From Candidatus Sumerlaeota bacterium (GTDB lineage: Bacteria > Sumerlaeota > Sumerlaeia > JAFGJS01), in contig JAFGJS010000114.1 in the NCBI GenBank assembly GCA_016928995.1, forward strand, positions 1 through 26,903: a stretch of 26,903 nt of DNA, written 5' to 3'. Position 1 is the first letter of the stretch. The number at the start of each line of letters is the position of its first letter. The translations under genes and the position numbers were made by a program. The notes beneath the pieces are model-generated. The model was not told where the DNA came from. It saw only the letters and a program-made list of their open reading frames with translations, and made no database searches. Below are positions 6,405 through 17,722 of the stretch, in pieces.

Positions 6405-6487
6405 GCAGAGAAACTTTTTTTGATGGCGGCGATTGCGATTGATGGCGTCCGCTCCGCCGCCGAATGCATCTGTTTCAGGGATTCTTG

Positions 6488-7456
6488 ATGCCCAGAAAAA
6501 TTGAACGTCCCTATAGCGGCCGGATACATGGCTCGCCGTTGCCGCGCGTGCCGGAAGGCGTCCGGATTCCCGCGCCCGTGGCAGCGCCGCCGCATTTGCC
6601 GCGCGTCGAAACCACACCGGACGCCGATGTGGACAACCCCGTGTTTCGCTATCAGCTCGGCGGCGCAGCCTGGCGCCGGCATCGATATATGATCGCCCTC
6701 GGCGTGATCAGTTTATATTTATCCGTCCCGCTCGCCTGGGCGCTCTGCTCCGCGCTGGCCCCGAATCCTTATCTGCTGATCACGCTGATTCTGACCGCGA
6801 TGCACATCGCGCTGTTCACCGGCATGATGATTTATTCGACCCGCATCGGCTTGCTGGGGGAGGGTGATGCGCCGCGCGATTTCCTGCGCGACATGTATCT
6901 TTCGTTTTTATCGCCGGAAGATCTGGCGCGAGGCATCTCGCGCGCCCGGATGAATCGCTTGCTCTATCTGGCGTTGGCGCTGGCGCCGTTTGAGCTCCTG
7001 GCCGTGATGCATGGCTGGCTGTATAATCCCGATCCATGCCGCACCTTGTTTTTCCCGGTTTTCGTGGTCATTTTCTGGATCGACCTGTTGACATCGATGC
7101 AGATCAATCTGACGATTGGGCTGCGCCTGACCGTGGAAAGCAAGGATGAGCGCCGGTTGATGCTGAAGACCTACGCGCTCATGCTGGCATATTTTCCATT
7201 GATGTTTATCTTGTTTTTAATTCCAGTGAACTGTGTCAGCAAGCTCTTTGGCGGCTTTGGCGTGATGGCGGTGACTACGGTCTGGGCTCCCGGCGGTCAA
7301 ATGATTTCCATGCCCGGATACGGTTTGCTGATTTTGCTGATCGTGACGCGCGCATTCTATGTGCTGCTGGTGCGCGTGGGGTATGCGTTGCGCAGCCAGT
7401 CGCTGTATTACCGCAATTTCGACGCCTGGCTGCGCCGCTGGATCACGAGGGAATGA
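6488..7456 (+). CDS. six-TM membrane protein of unknown function
   Basis: I do not recognise this 322-aa protein. It has a cytosolic, Pro/Arg-rich N-terminus (about residues 1-68, PRVPEGVRIPAPVAAPPHLP). Six hydrophobic segments follow at about residues 72-95, 99-121, 157-178, 183-210, 222-250 and 262-288, and the C-terminus is basic and aromatic. Between TM2 and TM3 is a polar loop (GEGDAPRDFLRDMYLSFLSP) reminiscent of cytosolic loops in ABC-2-type permeases, but no ATPase gene is adjacent and I would not assign it there. The ATG at 6488 has AGGG at 6477-6480. An in-frame ATG at 6464 would add eight residues. It stands alone on the plus strand between uppP and the pentapeptide/J-domain gene. 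Confidence 0.75.
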   Translation: MPRKIERPYSGRIHGSPLPRVPEGVRIPAPVAAPPHLPRVETTPDADVDNPVFRYQLGGAAWRRHRYMIALGVISLYLSVPLAWALCSALAPNPYLLITLILTAMHIALFTGMMIYSTRIGLLGEGDAPRDFLRDMYLSFLSPEDLARGISRARMNRLLYLALALAPFELLAVMHGWLYNPDPCRTLFFPVFVVIFWIDLLTSMQINLTIGLRLTVESKDERRLMLKTYALMLAYFPLMFILFLIPVNCVSKLFGGFGVMAVTTVWAPGGQMISMPGYGLLILLIVTRAFYVLLVRVGYALRSQSLYYRNFDAWLRRWITRE

Positions 7457-7550: not shown

Positions 7551-7692
7551 GTACAGTTATTTCTCTTGCTGGACTATGATGCCTTGCTGCCTGCAATGAA
7601 ACGCATGTCCAACCGTAATATTACGGAAGTTTATTTTCCGGGTTGCTTGTTAGATACACAGAGTTCATGGAACGCATAAGGATTCGGAGAAC

Positions 7693-8796
7693 ATGGCGCT
7701 GGATCAACATCTCGACGTGCTCTACAAAGTGGCCAGCAAGCAGCTGGATAAATCGGAATGGGACGATTTACGCAATTCCGCGACATATGTGGATTTGAGC
7801 GAGGCGGACTTAAGCCACTTGGAACTAGCCGGCTTAACTTTTGACGGCGCAGATCTCACCAGCGCGCGAATGTTCAACACGAACCTGGAAGGCGCCAGCA
7901 TGCGCCGCTGCACACTCTCCTTCGCCGACCTGCGGCGTGCGAACCTGGCCAAGGTGAAACTGCAGGAAAGCAACCTTAGCGGCGCCAACCTCAGCGGCGC
8001 CAACATGGTCGAGACGCAATTGCAGCGGGTGAACCTGCAATCCGCGATCATGGCCGGTGTGCATCTGATCAACGGCGACTTGACCGGGGCGTACCTGACC
8101 AAAGCCGACTTGCGCGGCGCAACCTTCAAAATGTCGCGCTTCCGGGGCGCTCAGCTCGCCGGGGCCAACGTCGAGGACGCCGATTTCACGCGCGCGCTGA
8201 TCTCCGACAAGCAATTGAAGGACGTGAAGCATCTGGACCGGGCCTTGATCAACGACCGGCAGCGCCCCAAGGAAGAAGAAGAGGAGACGGCGCAGGATTC
8301 GCCGGCCGCCGAGATCAATTACGATTATCTCTTTCAAGAAACGGATTGTTTTAAGATCCTGGGCGTCGATGCGGACGCCTCGATGGAAGAAATCGCGCGG
8401 GCCTACCGCAAACGGGTCATGGAGTACCATCCGGACCGGGTGAACAATCTGGGCGAGAAGATCAAGGAAGTCGCCCGGCGTGAGTTTGAGCGCATCCAAA
8501 ACGCGTACAAATCGCTCAGCCGGCATCAATCCCGGCCCGACGTAGAGATCGCGATCAAAATCAATCAAAACGAAGTCGTGCGCACCAGCAATCAATTCAC
8601 GCTGGAGCAATACGAGGCCCTGAGCCTGCGCTTCCCGGACGACAGCCGGATCCTGTTCAACCTCGGCAATAAATACATGGAATCGAATCTATATGCGCAG
8701 GCGGTGAAGACGTTCAAGCGGGTGATGGAACTCGATCCGGAAAACGCAAGCGCCGTGCATAACCTGAAAATCGCAAATTTATTGCTGCAAATTTAA
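7693..8796 (+). CDS. pentapeptide-repeat / J-domain / TPR fusion protein
   Basis: This 367-aa protein joins three modules. Residues about 33-172 are pentapeptide repeats (A(D/N)Lxx units such as SEADLSHLEL and SGANLSGANM), which fold as a right-handed quadrilateral beta-helix used for protein binding. An acidic linker (about 185-200, with EEEEET) follows. Residues about 213-278 form a J-domain with the diagnostic YHPD at 245-248, so it should stimulate an Hsp70 ATPase. Residues about 310-365 hold one or two TPR-like helices (NLGNKYMESNLYAQAVKTFK). No signal peptide is present, so it is probably cytosolic. Ribosome sites AAGGA (7678-7682) and GGAG (7686-7689) precede the ATG. No Hsp70 gene adjoins it. 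The closest candidate partner in the window is the one at 14956-16773. The domain calls are firm and the function is inference. Confidence 0.88.
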   Translation: MALDQHLDVLYKVASKQLDKSEWDDLRNSATYVDLSEADLSHLELAGLTFDGADLTSARMFNTNLEGASMRRCTLSFADLRRANLAKVKLQESNLSGANLSGANMVETQLQRVNLQSAIMAGVHLINGDLTGAYLTKADLRGATFKMSRFRGAQLAGANVEDADFTRALISDKQLKDVKHLDRALINDRQRPKEEEEETAQDSPAAEINYDYLFQETDCFKILGVDADASMEEIARAYRKRVMEYHPDRVNNLGEKIKEVARREFERIQNAYKSLSRHQSRPDVEIAIKINQNEVVRTSNQFTLEQYEALSLRFPDDSRILFNLGNKYMESNLYAQAVKTFKRVMELDPENASAVHNLKIANLLLQI

Positions 8797-8830
8797 GGCA
8801 ATCCTAAGCCCAGCCCTTTTGTTTTTTTAA

Positions 8831-8858
8831 TTTATAATTATGAATTCATAATTATAAA
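8831..8858. promoter_or_regulatory. 28-bp perfect AT palindrome upstream of recF
   Basis: The 14-base half TTTATAATTATGAA is followed immediately by its exact complement, with no spacer. All bases are A or T except two GC pairs flanking the centre. It begins about 34 bases after the pentapeptide/J-domain gene stop and ends 39 bases before the recF start. It could be an operator for a dimeric regulator, an AT-rich promoter element (TATAAT is contained within it), or an unusual cruciform-prone site. No regulator is identified. Confidence 0.6.
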
Positions 8859-8896
8859 TGAATGGCTGGCCAGAATCCGGCGGCTGCAAGATCGAC

Positions 8897-12668: not shown

Positions 12669-13664
12669 ATGAGATCACAATCGAAGTCGTCCAATCTGAA
12701 GGTTTTGTTCGCCGGTTTGATGATTAGTTTTGGTTTGACCATGCAGCCATATGCCAGCATCACCTATACGCTGCATCTGGATGGCGTTGATTCCAGCATC
12801 GCCAGCGCGATCAGCTCCGCGATGGCTGAGGCGGTTTCGCTTTACAATGCGAACGGCACGTTCACCAAGAGCCTGCATGTTTATTATAGTTCCGGCGTGC
12901 CCACGGCCCAGGCGAACTATGACGGCGTGATCACGTTCGGCGGCTCACGCAACACGCGCGTGGCGATGCATGAAATTTCCCATACCTTGGGCATCGGAAC
13001 CTATTCGGCCTATTGGAACCTGATGACCGGCGGCAACTGGGACGGCGGCAATGCGGTTCGCAAACTGAAATCCTTCGACGGCGCGAGCGCGGTGCTGAAG
13101 GGCGACAGTGTGCATTTCTGGCCGTACGGCTTGAATTATGACAGCGAGGACGGCACGACCGCCCGCGTGCGTCACGTGCAGATCGTGCAGGCTTTTCAGT
13201 CGGACATGGGCCTGAACTCCCTGGGCAACGTCGGCGGCATCACGACCGGCAGCAGCAAGTACCTGGTCAACCGCTCGGCCAGCAAGGTGTTGACCGCCGC
13301 CGCCGCCACCAATGGCTCGAACGTAAGCATCGCCACCAAAGTGAGCAGCACCGCCCAGAAGTGGACCATCGCCTCGAGCGGCGCAGGACGCATTTCGCTG
13401 CGGAGCGCTCAGACAGGCGCCCGCGCGATTGACACGTGGAGCTGGGGCACGGTGAATGGCACGAATCTCGCGCTGTATGACTATTATTCGAACGCCTGCC
13501 AGCAGTACATCGCTTACAATGTGAGCGGCAGCTACTACGCGATTTTCCCGAGCCATGCCACTGGCGGCGTTCAGTGCGCCGACGCCTTTGGCACCTCCAG
13601 CGGCTCCAACGTTGGAACGTGGTCCTACTGGGGCGGCACGAATCAGCAATGGTACGTCCAATAA
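12669..13664 (+). CDS. secreted HExxH metallopeptidase-like protein with ricin-type lectin domain
   Basis: This is a 331-aa exported protein. The N-terminus carries a signal peptide of about 30 residues (basic start, VLFAGLMISFGLTM, PYAS). The catalytic-like domain (about 31-185) has HEISHTLGIGT at 101-111. His101, Glu102 and His105 give the zinc HExxH, and Gly108 matches the metzincin HExxHxxG, but the position of the usual third ligand (111) is Thr rather than His or Asp. Residues about 190-331 form a ricin-type beta-trefoil (CBM13-like) with three Q-x-(W/Y) motifs: AQKWTI, CQQYIA and NQQWYV. The likely role is cleavage or binding of extracellular glycoprotein or polysaccharide. GAGGAG at 12655-12660 fixes the ATG at 12669. 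A terminator follows. It is flanked by two homologous hairpin elements. Confidence 0.85.
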   Translation: MRSQSKSSNLKVLFAGLMISFGLTMQPYASITYTLHLDGVDSSIASAISSAMAEAVSLYNANGTFTKSLHVYYSSGVPTAQANYDGVITFGGSRNTRVAMHEISHTLGIGTYSAYWNLMTGGNWDGGNAVRKLKSFDGASAVLKGDSVHFWPYGLNYDSEDGTTARVRHVQIVQAFQSDMGLNSLGNVGGITTGSSKYLVNRSASKVLTAAAATNGSNVSIATKVSSTAQKWTIASSGAGRISLRSAQTGARAIDTWSWGTVNGTNLALYDYYSNACQQYIAYNVSGSYYAIFPSHATGGVQCADAFGTSSGSNVGTWSYWGGTNQQWYVQ

Positions 13665-14955: not shown

Positions 14956-16773
14956 TTATTTATTTTCCCAGGAAGCCTTGTGCGAATAGAACAGATCCTT
15001 ATAACGGCCGCCGATATTGATCAGCTCGCCCTCGGCGTTGGCCACACCCTCCACATTGCCGGCTTGAATATTCACATCCAGCGAGAACATCTTCTCGCGC
15101 AGCGCATGAAGATCCTCTGGCGCCAGACGATCTTCGTATGAGTCCATGAAATTCTGCACCATCGCGCTGAAATCGCGCGCCTGTTGAATGCGCCGCCGGT
15201 CGCGCAAGAAATTCAGATCCTGCTCGATCTTCTCCTCCGCCTCGGCCGCGACACGCTCGGCCTCCTCCGTCGAAGTCTGCGCAGCCGAAGCCACGGTGAC
15301 TTCCATCATATTTCCTGACGTCACGTCCGTCGCCGAAACATTCAAGATCCCATTCGCGTCGATCATGAAACGCACCTTGATCTCCGGCAGGTCTTTCGGC
15401 GCCGGAGCGATGCCGTTCAGCTTGAAATGCGCCAGCGAACGGTTTTCCGCCGCCACTTTCCGTTCGCCTTGCAGCACATGTACATTCACCGCCTTCTGAT
15501 TGTCCACCACCGTCGTGAATGACTTCTCGACCACGATCGGGATGTTGCTGTTGCGAGGAATCAATGTGGAAAACACGCCCCCCGCCAGTTCGATCCCCAG
15601 CGAAAGCGGCGTCACGTCCAGCAGGAGCACTTCCTCCAGGCTGCCGGTGATCACGCCCGCCTGAATCGCCGCCCCCATCGCGACGATCTCGTCCGGATTG
15701 ACCGATTTCGATGGCGGCCGGCTGAAAAAATCTCCCACCAGGTGCTGCACCGCCGGGATGCGCGTCGAGCCGCCCACCAGCAGCACCTGATCGAGATCTT
15801 TCGGCTCCAACTTCGCATCGCGCAAAGCGTTGCGGCACGGCTCCAGCAAGCGCTCCAGGATCGGCGCGATCAGCGCCTCGTACTCCTTGCGCGTCAATTC
15901 GCTCTCGAAATGCTGCGGACCTTCCTCATTCGCTACGATGAACGGCAGGTTGATCTTGACCTTCGTGAGCGAGGATAGCTCGCATTTGGCCGTTTCCGCC
16001 GCTTCGCGAATCCGCTGAACCGTCGCCTTGTCGCCTTCTGGATCGATCCCGGTCTGCTCGCGAATCCGGTCGCGCAGCACCTGGTAAACCAATTGATCGA
16101 TGTCATCGCCGCCCAACGCGCAATCGCCGTTCGTCGAAAGCACCTCATACGTGTCGCCGCTGATCTCCAGCAGCGTCACATCAAACGTGCCGCCGCCAAA
16201 ATCGAACACCGCGACGCGCTGATCCTCATCCAGCGAAACGCCGTAAGCCAGCGCCGCCGCCGTCGGTTCATTGATGATCCGCAACACGCGCAACCCGGCC
16301 AGCTGACCCGCCGCCTTCGTCGCCTGACGCTGGCTGTCGTTGAAATACGCAGGCACGGTGATCACCGCGTCTTCGATCTCCTCGCCCAGATAATCCTCCG
16401 CCGTCTGCTTCATTTTGTACAAGATCGCCGCGCTGATCTCCTCCGGCTTGTACAGCATGGAGCTCACTTCAATCACGGCCATGCCCTCATCATCAGCGAG
16501 CAGCGGATAATGAATCCCGGCCAGCCGATCCTGAACCTCCTCCAGCCGCGAGCCGATGAACCGTTTCACGCTGCGGATCACGCGCTCCGGCTGCGTGATC
16601 AGCTGCCGCTTGGCCACGGCCCCCACGACAGGATCGTCGTCTCCGCTCAGCAGCACGACAGACGGCGTGGTCTTGCTGCCCTCCGCGTTTGGGATCACCT
16701 CCGCCTTGCCGCCCTCCAGAAAAGCCACAACGGAATTTGTCGTTCCCAGATCAATGCCGATGGTGTGCGCCAT
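14956..16773 (-). CDS. Hsp70-family chaperone (DnaK/HscA-like paralogue)
   Basis: This 605-aa Hsp70 couples ATP hydrolysis to peptide binding. All nucleotide-site motifs are present: DLGTTNS (8-14), NEPTAAALAYG (168-178), DFGGGTFDV (191-199) and GGSTRIP (334-340). The interdomain linker LLLDVTPLSLGIEL (383-396) and a beta-sandwich substrate domain follow. The C-terminal lid (about 520-605) is shorter and divergent, with no DnaK-style low-complexity tail. Overall length is nearer HscA (about 616) than DnaK (about 640). It follows a J-domain/TPR gene by 7 bases, with no grpE, hrcA, iscU or fdx nearby. This argues against both the stress operon and the Fe-S operon. I call it a dedicated Hsp70 and do not assign dnaK or hscA. 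Confidence 0.93.
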   Translation of the reverse strand: MAHTIGIDLGTTNSVVAFLEGGKAEVIPNAEGSKTTPSVVLLSGDDDPVVGAVAKRQLITQPERVIRSVKRFIGSRLEEVQDRLAGIHYPLLADDEGMAVIEVSSMLYKPEEISAAILYKMKQTAEDYLGEEIEDAVITVPAYFNDSQRQATKAAGQLAGLRVLRIINEPTAAALAYGVSLDEDQRVAVFDFGGGTFDVTLLEISGDTYEVLSTNGDCALGGDDIDQLVYQVLRDRIREQTGIDPEGDKATVQRIREAAETAKCELSSLTKVKINLPFIVANEEGPQHFESELTRKEYEALIAPILERLLEPCRNALRDAKLEPKDLDQVLLVGGSTRIPAVQHLVGDFFSRPPSKSVNPDEIVAMGAAIQAGVITGSLEEVLLLDVTPLSLGIELAGGVFSTLIPRNSNIPIVVEKSFTTVVDNQKAVNVHVLQGERKVAAENRSLAHFKLNGIAPAPKDLPEIKVRFMIDANGILNVSATDVTSGNMMEVTVASAAQTSTEEAERVAAEAEEKIEQDLNFLRDRRRIQQARDFSAMVQNFMDSYEDRLAPEDLHALREKMFSLDVNIQAGNVEGVANAEGELINIGGRYKDLFYSHKASWENK

Positions 16774-16780
16774 AATCCCC

Positions 16781-17542
16781 CTACTTCTTAAACCGGCTCA
16801 TAAGCTTGGATAAAAATGAGTCGCCGCTCGGACCCCTGATCGCATCGAGTTTTTGTCGTGCGCTGGTGTTGCTTGAGTCCCAGCGCAGCACCTCCTCATA
16901 CTGCTTGGCCGCCAGCGAACGGCTCCCCGCCGCCGCGTAAATGTCGCCCAGATTCATCTTATACTCAAGGCTGTAAGCGTCCAGTTCGCAAGCCCGCTTG
17001 CAAGCCTCCACGGATTTCGTGAAGCCCCGCCGCGCCTTGATCAGCGCCATCGCGAGCTTCGCATGATACGAAGCCTCGTGCGGATTGTTTTGAATCGCCG
17101 CTTCGAAGAATTCGATAGCCCGGTGAAACTCCCCGATTTGATAAAGCTGGCATCCCTTGACGAACGCCTTTTGCGCGATGTTCACCCGGCTTTTTTCGAT
17201 CCCCACGTCCGATGCCGTGATGGGGCGCTGAAAGGATTTGGTCGAGGGTTTGGCGCTGGTTTTCTCGCCGCTCAGCGTCGCTTCCCGCATCGCATCGGTT
17301 TCTTTTTTCAGTTTCGCGTCGTATTCCTTCCGCCGGTCGTCATCCTTGAGCACATTATACGCCTCGGAAATTAAAGCGAATTCCTCTTCGAACTGCTGCT
17401 GCTCTTCCGTCGAAGACGCCTTGTCCGGATGATATTTGCGCGCTAATTGATGATACGCCCGCTTCACCTCGCGGATCGGCGAGTCCTTTGAAACTTTCAA
17501 AATCTGATAATATGTGCGTTCTCCTGCCAAGTTGGTAGCCAT
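16781..17542 (-). CDS. J-domain/TPR co-chaperone of the adjacent Hsp70
   Basis: This is a 253-aa protein. The J-domain is at about residues 9-77 (TYYQILKVSKDSPIREVKRA, then the diagnostic YHPDK, then ISEAYNVLKDDDRRKEYD). A charged linker rich in Lys/Thr/Ser follows (about 78-120). Residues about 125-240 hold three or so TPR-like helical pairs (FVKGCQLYQIGEFHRAIEFF and following). There is no Gly/Phe region and no zinc finger, so it is not DnaJ. It should recruit and activate the Hsp70 whose start lies 7 bases past its stop, and the TPR part probably binds the client. I chose the ATG at 17542, where the J-domain normally begins (MATNLAGERTYYQIL), over a longer frame to 17626. GGAG sits very close to this ATG. 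Confidence 0.88.
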   Translation of the reverse strand: MATNLAGERTYYQILKVSKDSPIREVKRAYHQLARKYHPDKASSTEEQQQFEEEFALISEAYNVLKDDDRRKEYDAKLKKETDAMREATLSGEKTSAKPSTKSFQRPITASDVGIEKSRVNIAQKAFVKGCQLYQIGEFHRAIEFFEAAIQNNPHEASYHAKLAMALIKARRGFTKSVEACKRACELDAYSLEYKMNLGDIYAAAGSRSLAAKQYEEVLRWDSSNTSARQKLDAIRGPSGDSFLSKLMSRFKK

Positions 17543-17722
17543 TCTCCAGAGAGTGAGTTCCTTAATCAAAAGTCGTGCCGCCGGCTCATGCCGCGCCGCA
17601 AGCCGGCGCCTTCGGACGTCAATCAAGACGTTATCCGACAGATCGCCGCACTCCGGCTGTTCATATCATCGTCGTTTCCGGCAATTATCTATAGCGGCGT
17701 TTGCATTCAGCGCCGGTTAATA

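Follow-up and report, generated by a model that had tools for sequence, protein, structure and literature searches.

The window analysed here, a stretch of 26,903 nucleotides, is contig 160 of the 161 contigs that make up a 4.55 Mb genome of Candidatus Sumerlaeota. Its forward strand carries an ORF at 7693-8796 that runs uninterrupted from an ATG start to a TAA stop and encodes 367 aa. A helical cap, 28 pentapeptides, a linker, a J-domain, and a short TPR-type helical end follow one another in the translated protein. The Pentapeptide, J, and TPR modules lie in one frame and each is matched by a Pfam model above its cut-off. The features of the locus, with the evidence for each, are:

7678..7689, + strand: plausible ribosome-binding site AAGGA...GGAG (AAGGA/GGAG) upstream of the ATG at 7693, read from the sequence
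7693..8796, + strand: whole gene, Pentapeptide-J-TPR protein of 367 aa (ORF and Pfam; 12 further Sumerlaeota genomes have full-length orthologues)
7693..7788, + strand: N-terminal cap, residues 1-32, helices 4-14 and 20-29, invariant W23 (AlphaFold2 pLDDT ~90; orthologue alignment)
7789..8208, + strand: solenoid, residues 33-172, 28 uninterrupted pentapeptides in seven coils of a predicted right-handed quadrilateral β-helix (PF00805, register, model, Foldseek)
8209..8328, + strand: solenoid end and flexible linker, residues 173-212 (pLDDT <50 at 193-210; linker dN/dS 0.57; charges)
8329..8538, + strand: J-domain, residues 213-282 (PF00226, E 9.9e-16; dN/dS 0.012)
8428..8436, + strand: HPD, H246-P247-D248, the Hsp70-activating motif (invariant in 13 of 13 orthologues)
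8539..8592, + strand: J-TPR connector, residues 283-300, variable, with a low-confidence β-hairpin at 286-297 (pLDDT <50 over most of it; dN/dS 0.35)
8593..8790, + strand: TPR end, residues 301-366, a single canonical TPR and its flanking helices, four helices in all (PF14559, PF00515, model helices 304-366, alignment, dN/dS 0.028)

Upstream of the gene, at 6464-7456 (+), lies a 330-aa ORF that looks by eye like a membrane protein and has no Pfam or NCBIfam match.

The chance that two or three genes were joined here by a sequencing or assembly error is negligible, as 13 separate assemblies show the same fusion in a single frame and no supporting point for an artefact was found. An earlier note on this DNA, made from the letters of the window, had read the gene as one 367-aa chain and held a frame error to be unlikely, and the ORF and the 13 assemblies bear this out. 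Pentapeptide, DnaJ, and TPR-type domains are the only significant domains in the protein; Pfam DnaJ_C and DnaJ_CXXCXGXG gave no match and no G/F-rich stretch is seen in the translation. The J-domain with its HPD makes it a member of the J-domain proteins (Hsp40 superfamily), and its composition, free of zinc-finger, G/F-rich, and C-terminal client-binding domains, is that of class C (type III). The architecture, its conservation, the selection on it, its vertical descent, and the invariant HPD are read from sequence. The protein is best assigned to class C as a J-protein with a new architecture, one that is real and conserved. Pfam Pentapeptide matches in the 4.55 Mb genome occur at this gene only, and the gene is one of seven J-domain loci.

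The fold itself is predicted. A structure prediction of the chain had been proposed in the earlier note, and an AlphaFold2 model built with seven aligned sequences yields the cap helices, the β-helix, the J helices with the HPD loop, and the TPR-type helices at a mean pLDDT of 81. The pTM is low (0.53) and the relative placing of the modules is therefore not predicted by the model. The two-helix cap with W23 is conserved and had been missed in the earlier note.

The pentapeptide repeats had been placed at about residues 33-172, and this range proved correct. The PF00805 match has an E of 7.4e-37 and the register holds perfectly between L35 and I170, with Leu, Met, Phe, Val, or Ile in the core every five residues. 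Pentapeptide-repeat proteins are recognised by at least eight contiguous pentapeptides (PMC8145042), and all 28 are contiguous here. The β-helix is predicted with a pLDDT of ~94 and resembles known members in Foldseek, where the matches listed for the full model against the PDB cover the solenoid only and comprise designed solenoids, HetL, MfpA, Qnr, and AlbG. No chain with a J-domain is among these listed matches. Residues 31-173 align gap-free across the 13 orthologues; the solenoid length is fixed at 28 pentapeptides. Conservation at the outward positions is uneven, with two adjacent faces more conserved than the other two (mean entropy 1.51 and 1.67 vs. 1.85 and 2.10 bits). Permutation tests on the data from 12 sequences gave p values, uncorrected for analysis choices, of 0.019 for the best adjacent pair and 0.025 for the range. 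Faces were counted from residue 35, and their numbers may not match the numbering in other proteins. The most conserved outward residues on the two faces include D79, R81, R82, D139, R141, and K146, and the stretch SFADLRRANL/SYADLRRANL, conserved in orthologues, is related to the YADLR repeat of HetL. A fixed length combined with two conserved faces is the pattern expected of a binding surface.

The model contains no helix of four or more residues between 30 and 210, and the solenoid is predicted to run into a disordered linker. The earlier note had described this linker as acidic. Its net charge is indeed -5 in the window protein, whereas nine of the 12 orthologues have linkers of +2 to +4, so that the acidic linker is an unconserved feature of the window protein and the importance implied for it is unsupported. 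Across the family, linker length ranges from 23 to 120 residues.

PF00226 matches residues 218-282 of the J-domain with 58 bits against a cut-off of 27.8, and the intact YHPD that had been read at 245-248 was confirmed as Y245-H246-P247-D248. Helix II is basic (AYRKRVMEYHPDR) and the domain plainly resembles J-domains whose structures are solved, E. coli DnaJ included. The loop and helix III (HPDRVxxLGxKxxxVAxxEF) resemble those in J-domains of DUF1232 proteins in Desulfamplus and Desulfobulbus. Since the nearest J-domains outside the family adjoin other N-terminal modules, such as DUF1232, the address parts may be interchangeable. The J-domain bears every sequence sign of activity, and stimulation of an Hsp70 is likely. 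A J-like domain with NPE for HPD elsewhere in the genome (L010) indicates that loss of the motif is possible in the lineage, but this has not happened in the 7693-8796 gene.

Selection was estimated from a same-genus pair (G016 vs. G009) with 93% protein identity and a synonymous distance of 0.59. The overall dN/dS is 0.065, with 0.021 for the solenoid, 0.012 for the J-domain, and 0.028 for the TPR end, compared with 0.57 for the linker and 0.35 for the J-TPR connector; the per-module ratios are rough as the segments are short. Purifying selection acts strongly on every module and less on the joints between them.

The TPR end is matched by TPR_1 (PF00515, E 3.4e-6) and by TPR_19 (PF14559, E 8.3e-6) over residues 305-359, the latter with 26.5 bits against a cut-off of 25. 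N323, L324, P349, N357, and L358 are invariant in the alignment. The TPR-like C-terminus of the earlier note is therefore present, although as one canonical TPR with flanking helices and not as an array. A role as a clamp for EEVD tails was considered and rejected, as a carboxylate clamp has three TPRs and the C-termini of the three Hsp70s that were read (GGKR, ENK, and SGN) are without EEVD. The TPR end may provide a second client contact, contact DnaK, or pack on the J-domain.

Four Hsp70s are encoded in the genome, at C11:86621 (the best score), on C160 (the window), on C45, and at C11:42497. The window DnaK (14956-16773, -, 605 aa) lies directly behind a J-TPR gene (16781-17626) with a gap of 8 bases, and together (14956-17626, -) they look like a core dedicated pair. 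A J-TPR protein of this kind is found in 32 of the 39 genomes of the class, with or without the pentapeptide-J-TPR gene, and a tie between the 7693-8796 gene and this pair was rejected on that ground. The Hsp70 at 14956-16773, which has its own adjacent J-TPR and is one of four, is on present evidence not a privileged partner, and no sequence clue singling out any of the four was found. The settings of two of the other Hsp70s are as follows. On C45 (G000:C45, L144 1471-4692, +), an Hsp70 is fused to TPR in a frame of 1326 aa, of which the first 1074 aa were read, and the start of a protein-kinase-like domain can be seen by eye in this frame (INRGSMGIIYRAKDR...VALKVL). In L010 (G000:C11, ~40.5-44.2 kb), the J-like domain with NPE occurs with a TPR array and is followed by grpE and then the Hsp70 at C11:42497, forming an unusual Hsp70 cluster.

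The gene belongs to a family. Of 40 relatives searched with the protein, eight had full-length matches and a further four had split ones. All 12 orthologues, which come from eight other Sumerlaeota families and are 29-43% identical to the window protein, have the order cap-solenoid-linker-J-TPR in a single frame. When the class was searched with a profile, 13 of its 39 genomes, from nine of 14 families, proved to carry the gene, with one full-length copy each; its absence from G023 (f12), a genome 90% complete, may reflect an assembly gap. The single genome from another class of the phylum lacked a match. A search of 386 sampled genomes, of which ~346 are from other phyla, gave no further full-length match, and in one genome the solenoid part alone was matched. 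Scanning a contig collection with the single sequence of the window protein gave no match, and the same scan with the family alignment placed six loci of the same family and two cyanobacterial reversed fusions among the best 80 of 502 candidates. Two thirds of the class lack the gene, so its task is not essential to the group.

In plasmids and viral contigs, no sequence matched the protein over most of its length, and the gene tree agrees with that of rpoB; an origin in a mobile element or phage was rejected. The protein tree has the groups (f9,(f11,f2)) and (f14,f4,f12) and leaves the f10 sequences in one group, much as the rpoB tree does, and the presence pattern on the rpoB tree takes four changes, where shuffled patterns average 10.7. 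This agreement and the small number of changes point to vertical inheritance within part of the class, with losses, and not to mobility. A conserved operon partner was sought between families and none was found, except for a GalT-like gene nearby in f10 and f6. The neighbours are otherwise a glycosyltransferase and an acyl-CoA dehydrogenase (f12), an Obg-type GTPase (f2), a GH109-like oxidoreductase (f10), and recF (window). Gene context therefore indicates neither a client nor a pathway.

The earlier note knew of no described co-chaperone with this domain order and proposed a genome search for it. No description of a J-pentapeptide co-chaperone was found in searches of the open-licence literature on pentapeptides with a J-domain or DnaJ, or on bacterial J-protein architecture, nor was the Pentapeptide-J-TPR architecture found in the review of pentapeptide proteins (PMC8145042). 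The suspicion of an undescribed order held up in the papers searched, but the protein is no one-off. Pentapeptide-J-TPR proteins form a Sumerlaeota family with an apparently new architecture, in which the pairing of J-domain and pentapeptides is not itself unique. Cyanobacterial proteins of Nostoc carneum (L101 5680-6381) and Cylindrospermum (L106 5956-6624), for which no description was found, also hold both in one chain; in these ~215-235 aa proteins the J-domain comes first and the pentapeptides follow without a TPR, opposite to the order in the window protein. The reversed fusions imply either two or more origins of the pairing or a reshuffling of it.

Several other systems share parts of the architecture. 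AtcJ of Shewanella is a dedicated bacterial J-protein whose non-J part contacts a specific partner (PMC6715715). Like the window protein, it has a J-domain with HPD and neither a zinc finger nor a DnaJ client-binding domain, but it is short (a J-domain and a 21-aa tail) and sits in an operon with its partners, whereas the window protein has a solenoid and a TPR end and no conserved operon. The NCBIfam ActJ model scores 48 on the window protein against a cut-off of 150. The Sumerlaeota J-TPR proteins such as 16781-17626 share a J-domain followed by TPR, but have no pentapeptide solenoid, more TPR, a position directly before dnaK in the window, and a far wider distribution. The solenoid is predicted to share the quadrilateral β-helix of HetL of Nostoc, which binds HetR mainly by face 3 and partly by face 2, repeats such as YADLR included, so that the partner docks on two adjacent faces (PMC7476756). 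HetL differs in being a single-domain protein of 40 pentapeptides without a J-domain, and its equivalogue model (NCBIfam NF047416) gives 86.9 bits here against a cut-off of 260.

J-proteins determine the site at which Hsp70 acts. The window protein has no DnaJ zinc-finger or C-terminal client-binding domain, and client binding must therefore come from its other modules. On balance, the protein is probably a class-C (type III) J-domain co-chaperone, present in one copy per genome and inherited vertically, whose solenoid docks on one particular partner and which recruits DnaK. Most likely, it is a dedicated adaptor that brings Hsp70 to that partner, with the solenoid as address module and the J-domain as recruiter, as the earlier note had proposed from sequence. 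We infer the existence of a dedicated partner, docking by the solenoid, stimulation of DnaK, and a role for the TPR end, which would work together as follows. The rigid seven-coil solenoid would dock via its two adjacent Arg/Lys/Asp faces on one particular protein or assembly, as suggested by its fixed length, conserved faces, and the HetL precedent. The flexible linker, with its disorder and relaxed selection, would let the J-domain swing, reach, and capture ATP-bound DnaK. The HPD would then trigger ATP hydrolysis, which is likely given the motif and established J-domain biochemistry, and DnaK would clamp the partner held by the solenoid or one of its neighbours. A second protein contact, or the positioning of the J-domain, may fall to the short TPR end.

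A bolder form of this mechanism, to which we give only a limited chance, has the solenoid as a rigid reader of a specific assembly whose acidic surface would fit the Arg/Lys faces, e.g. a filament, nucleoid, or envelope complex, and DnaK parked there as a local disassembly or assembly machine. If true, Hsp70 would in this uncultured phylum be addressed in a new way, with a β-helix. To our knowledge, little is known of bacterial class-C J-proteins with a dedicated partner. Of the tens of thousands of pentapeptide proteins, the partner is known for few (PMC8145042, PMC7476756). A solenoid tied to a module of known function offers a handle on both, as the solenoid's partner is presumably the destination of the Hsp70. 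The fixed seven-coil length and the conserved faces also point to residues worth mutating.

The alternatives to a dedicated adaptor differ in which module they reinterpret. The protein could be a general-purpose co-chaperone, in effect a spare DnaJ with many unfolded clients bound by its solenoid and TPR; the lack of a conserved operon partner and the mixture of several J-TPR and Hsp70 systems in the genome would agree with this. It is nevertheless unlikely: fixed solenoid length and two conserved faces suit one specific partner, and the genome already has seven J-domain loci. The pentapeptide β-helix also has a tightly packed core, and we know of no groove in it for unfolded chains. Loss of the J-domain's function, leaving a scaffold in which it is a structural or binding piece that no longer activates Hsp70, has a precedent in J-like domains without HPD, the NPE domain of L010 among them. 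This is quite improbable for the window protein, as HPD is kept in every orthologue, the most distant included, and the dN/dS of the J-domain is the lowest of all modules.

The earlier note had also allowed that the solenoid mimics DNA. The protein would then protect or regulate gyrase or another DNA-binding protein, and the J-domain would add Hsp70-driven removal. Known gyrase-binding pentapeptide proteins are acidic, mimic DNA, and form dimers through a C-terminal helix (PMC8145042). The predicted solenoid shares the β-helix fold of MfpA, Qnr, and AlbG in Foldseek, and the orthologues are moderately acidic, with net charges of -6 to -13. Neither such strong acidity nor the dimer helix, however, is seen here. 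The window protein has a net charge of -1, its conserved faces carry conserved Arg and Lys (R81, R82, R141, and K146) in place of a strongly acidic rod surface, and the model predicts no C-terminal capping helix for a head-to-head dimer. The 13 orthologues have no indels in the solenoid and are thus without extra loops such as QnrB needs, and the Qnr and MfpA models score far below their cut-offs (Qnr 49 vs. 240 bits, MfpA 48 vs. 360). A DNA mimic is consequently very improbable. As HetL docks HetR via its faces, and given the near-neutral charge, the conserved basic residues, and the predicted lack of a dimer helix, a protein-docking module would fit the solenoid better.

Two further features of the window were observed. 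The protein encoded at 12669-13664 (+) looks secreted by eye; it has a HEISH metalloprotease-like motif and, at its C-terminus, a ricin-type lectin domain. Between the 7693-8796 gene and recF lies a perfect 30-bp palindrome, ATTTATAATTATGAATTCATAATTATAAAT (8830-8859), which is nearly all A/T and is possibly an operator or a mobile hairpin. Only two similar sites occur elsewhere in the genome, with one and three mismatches; one lies upstream of an ORF that resembles the acetolactate synthase small subunit and the other at the start of a terminase-like ORF, both named by eye.
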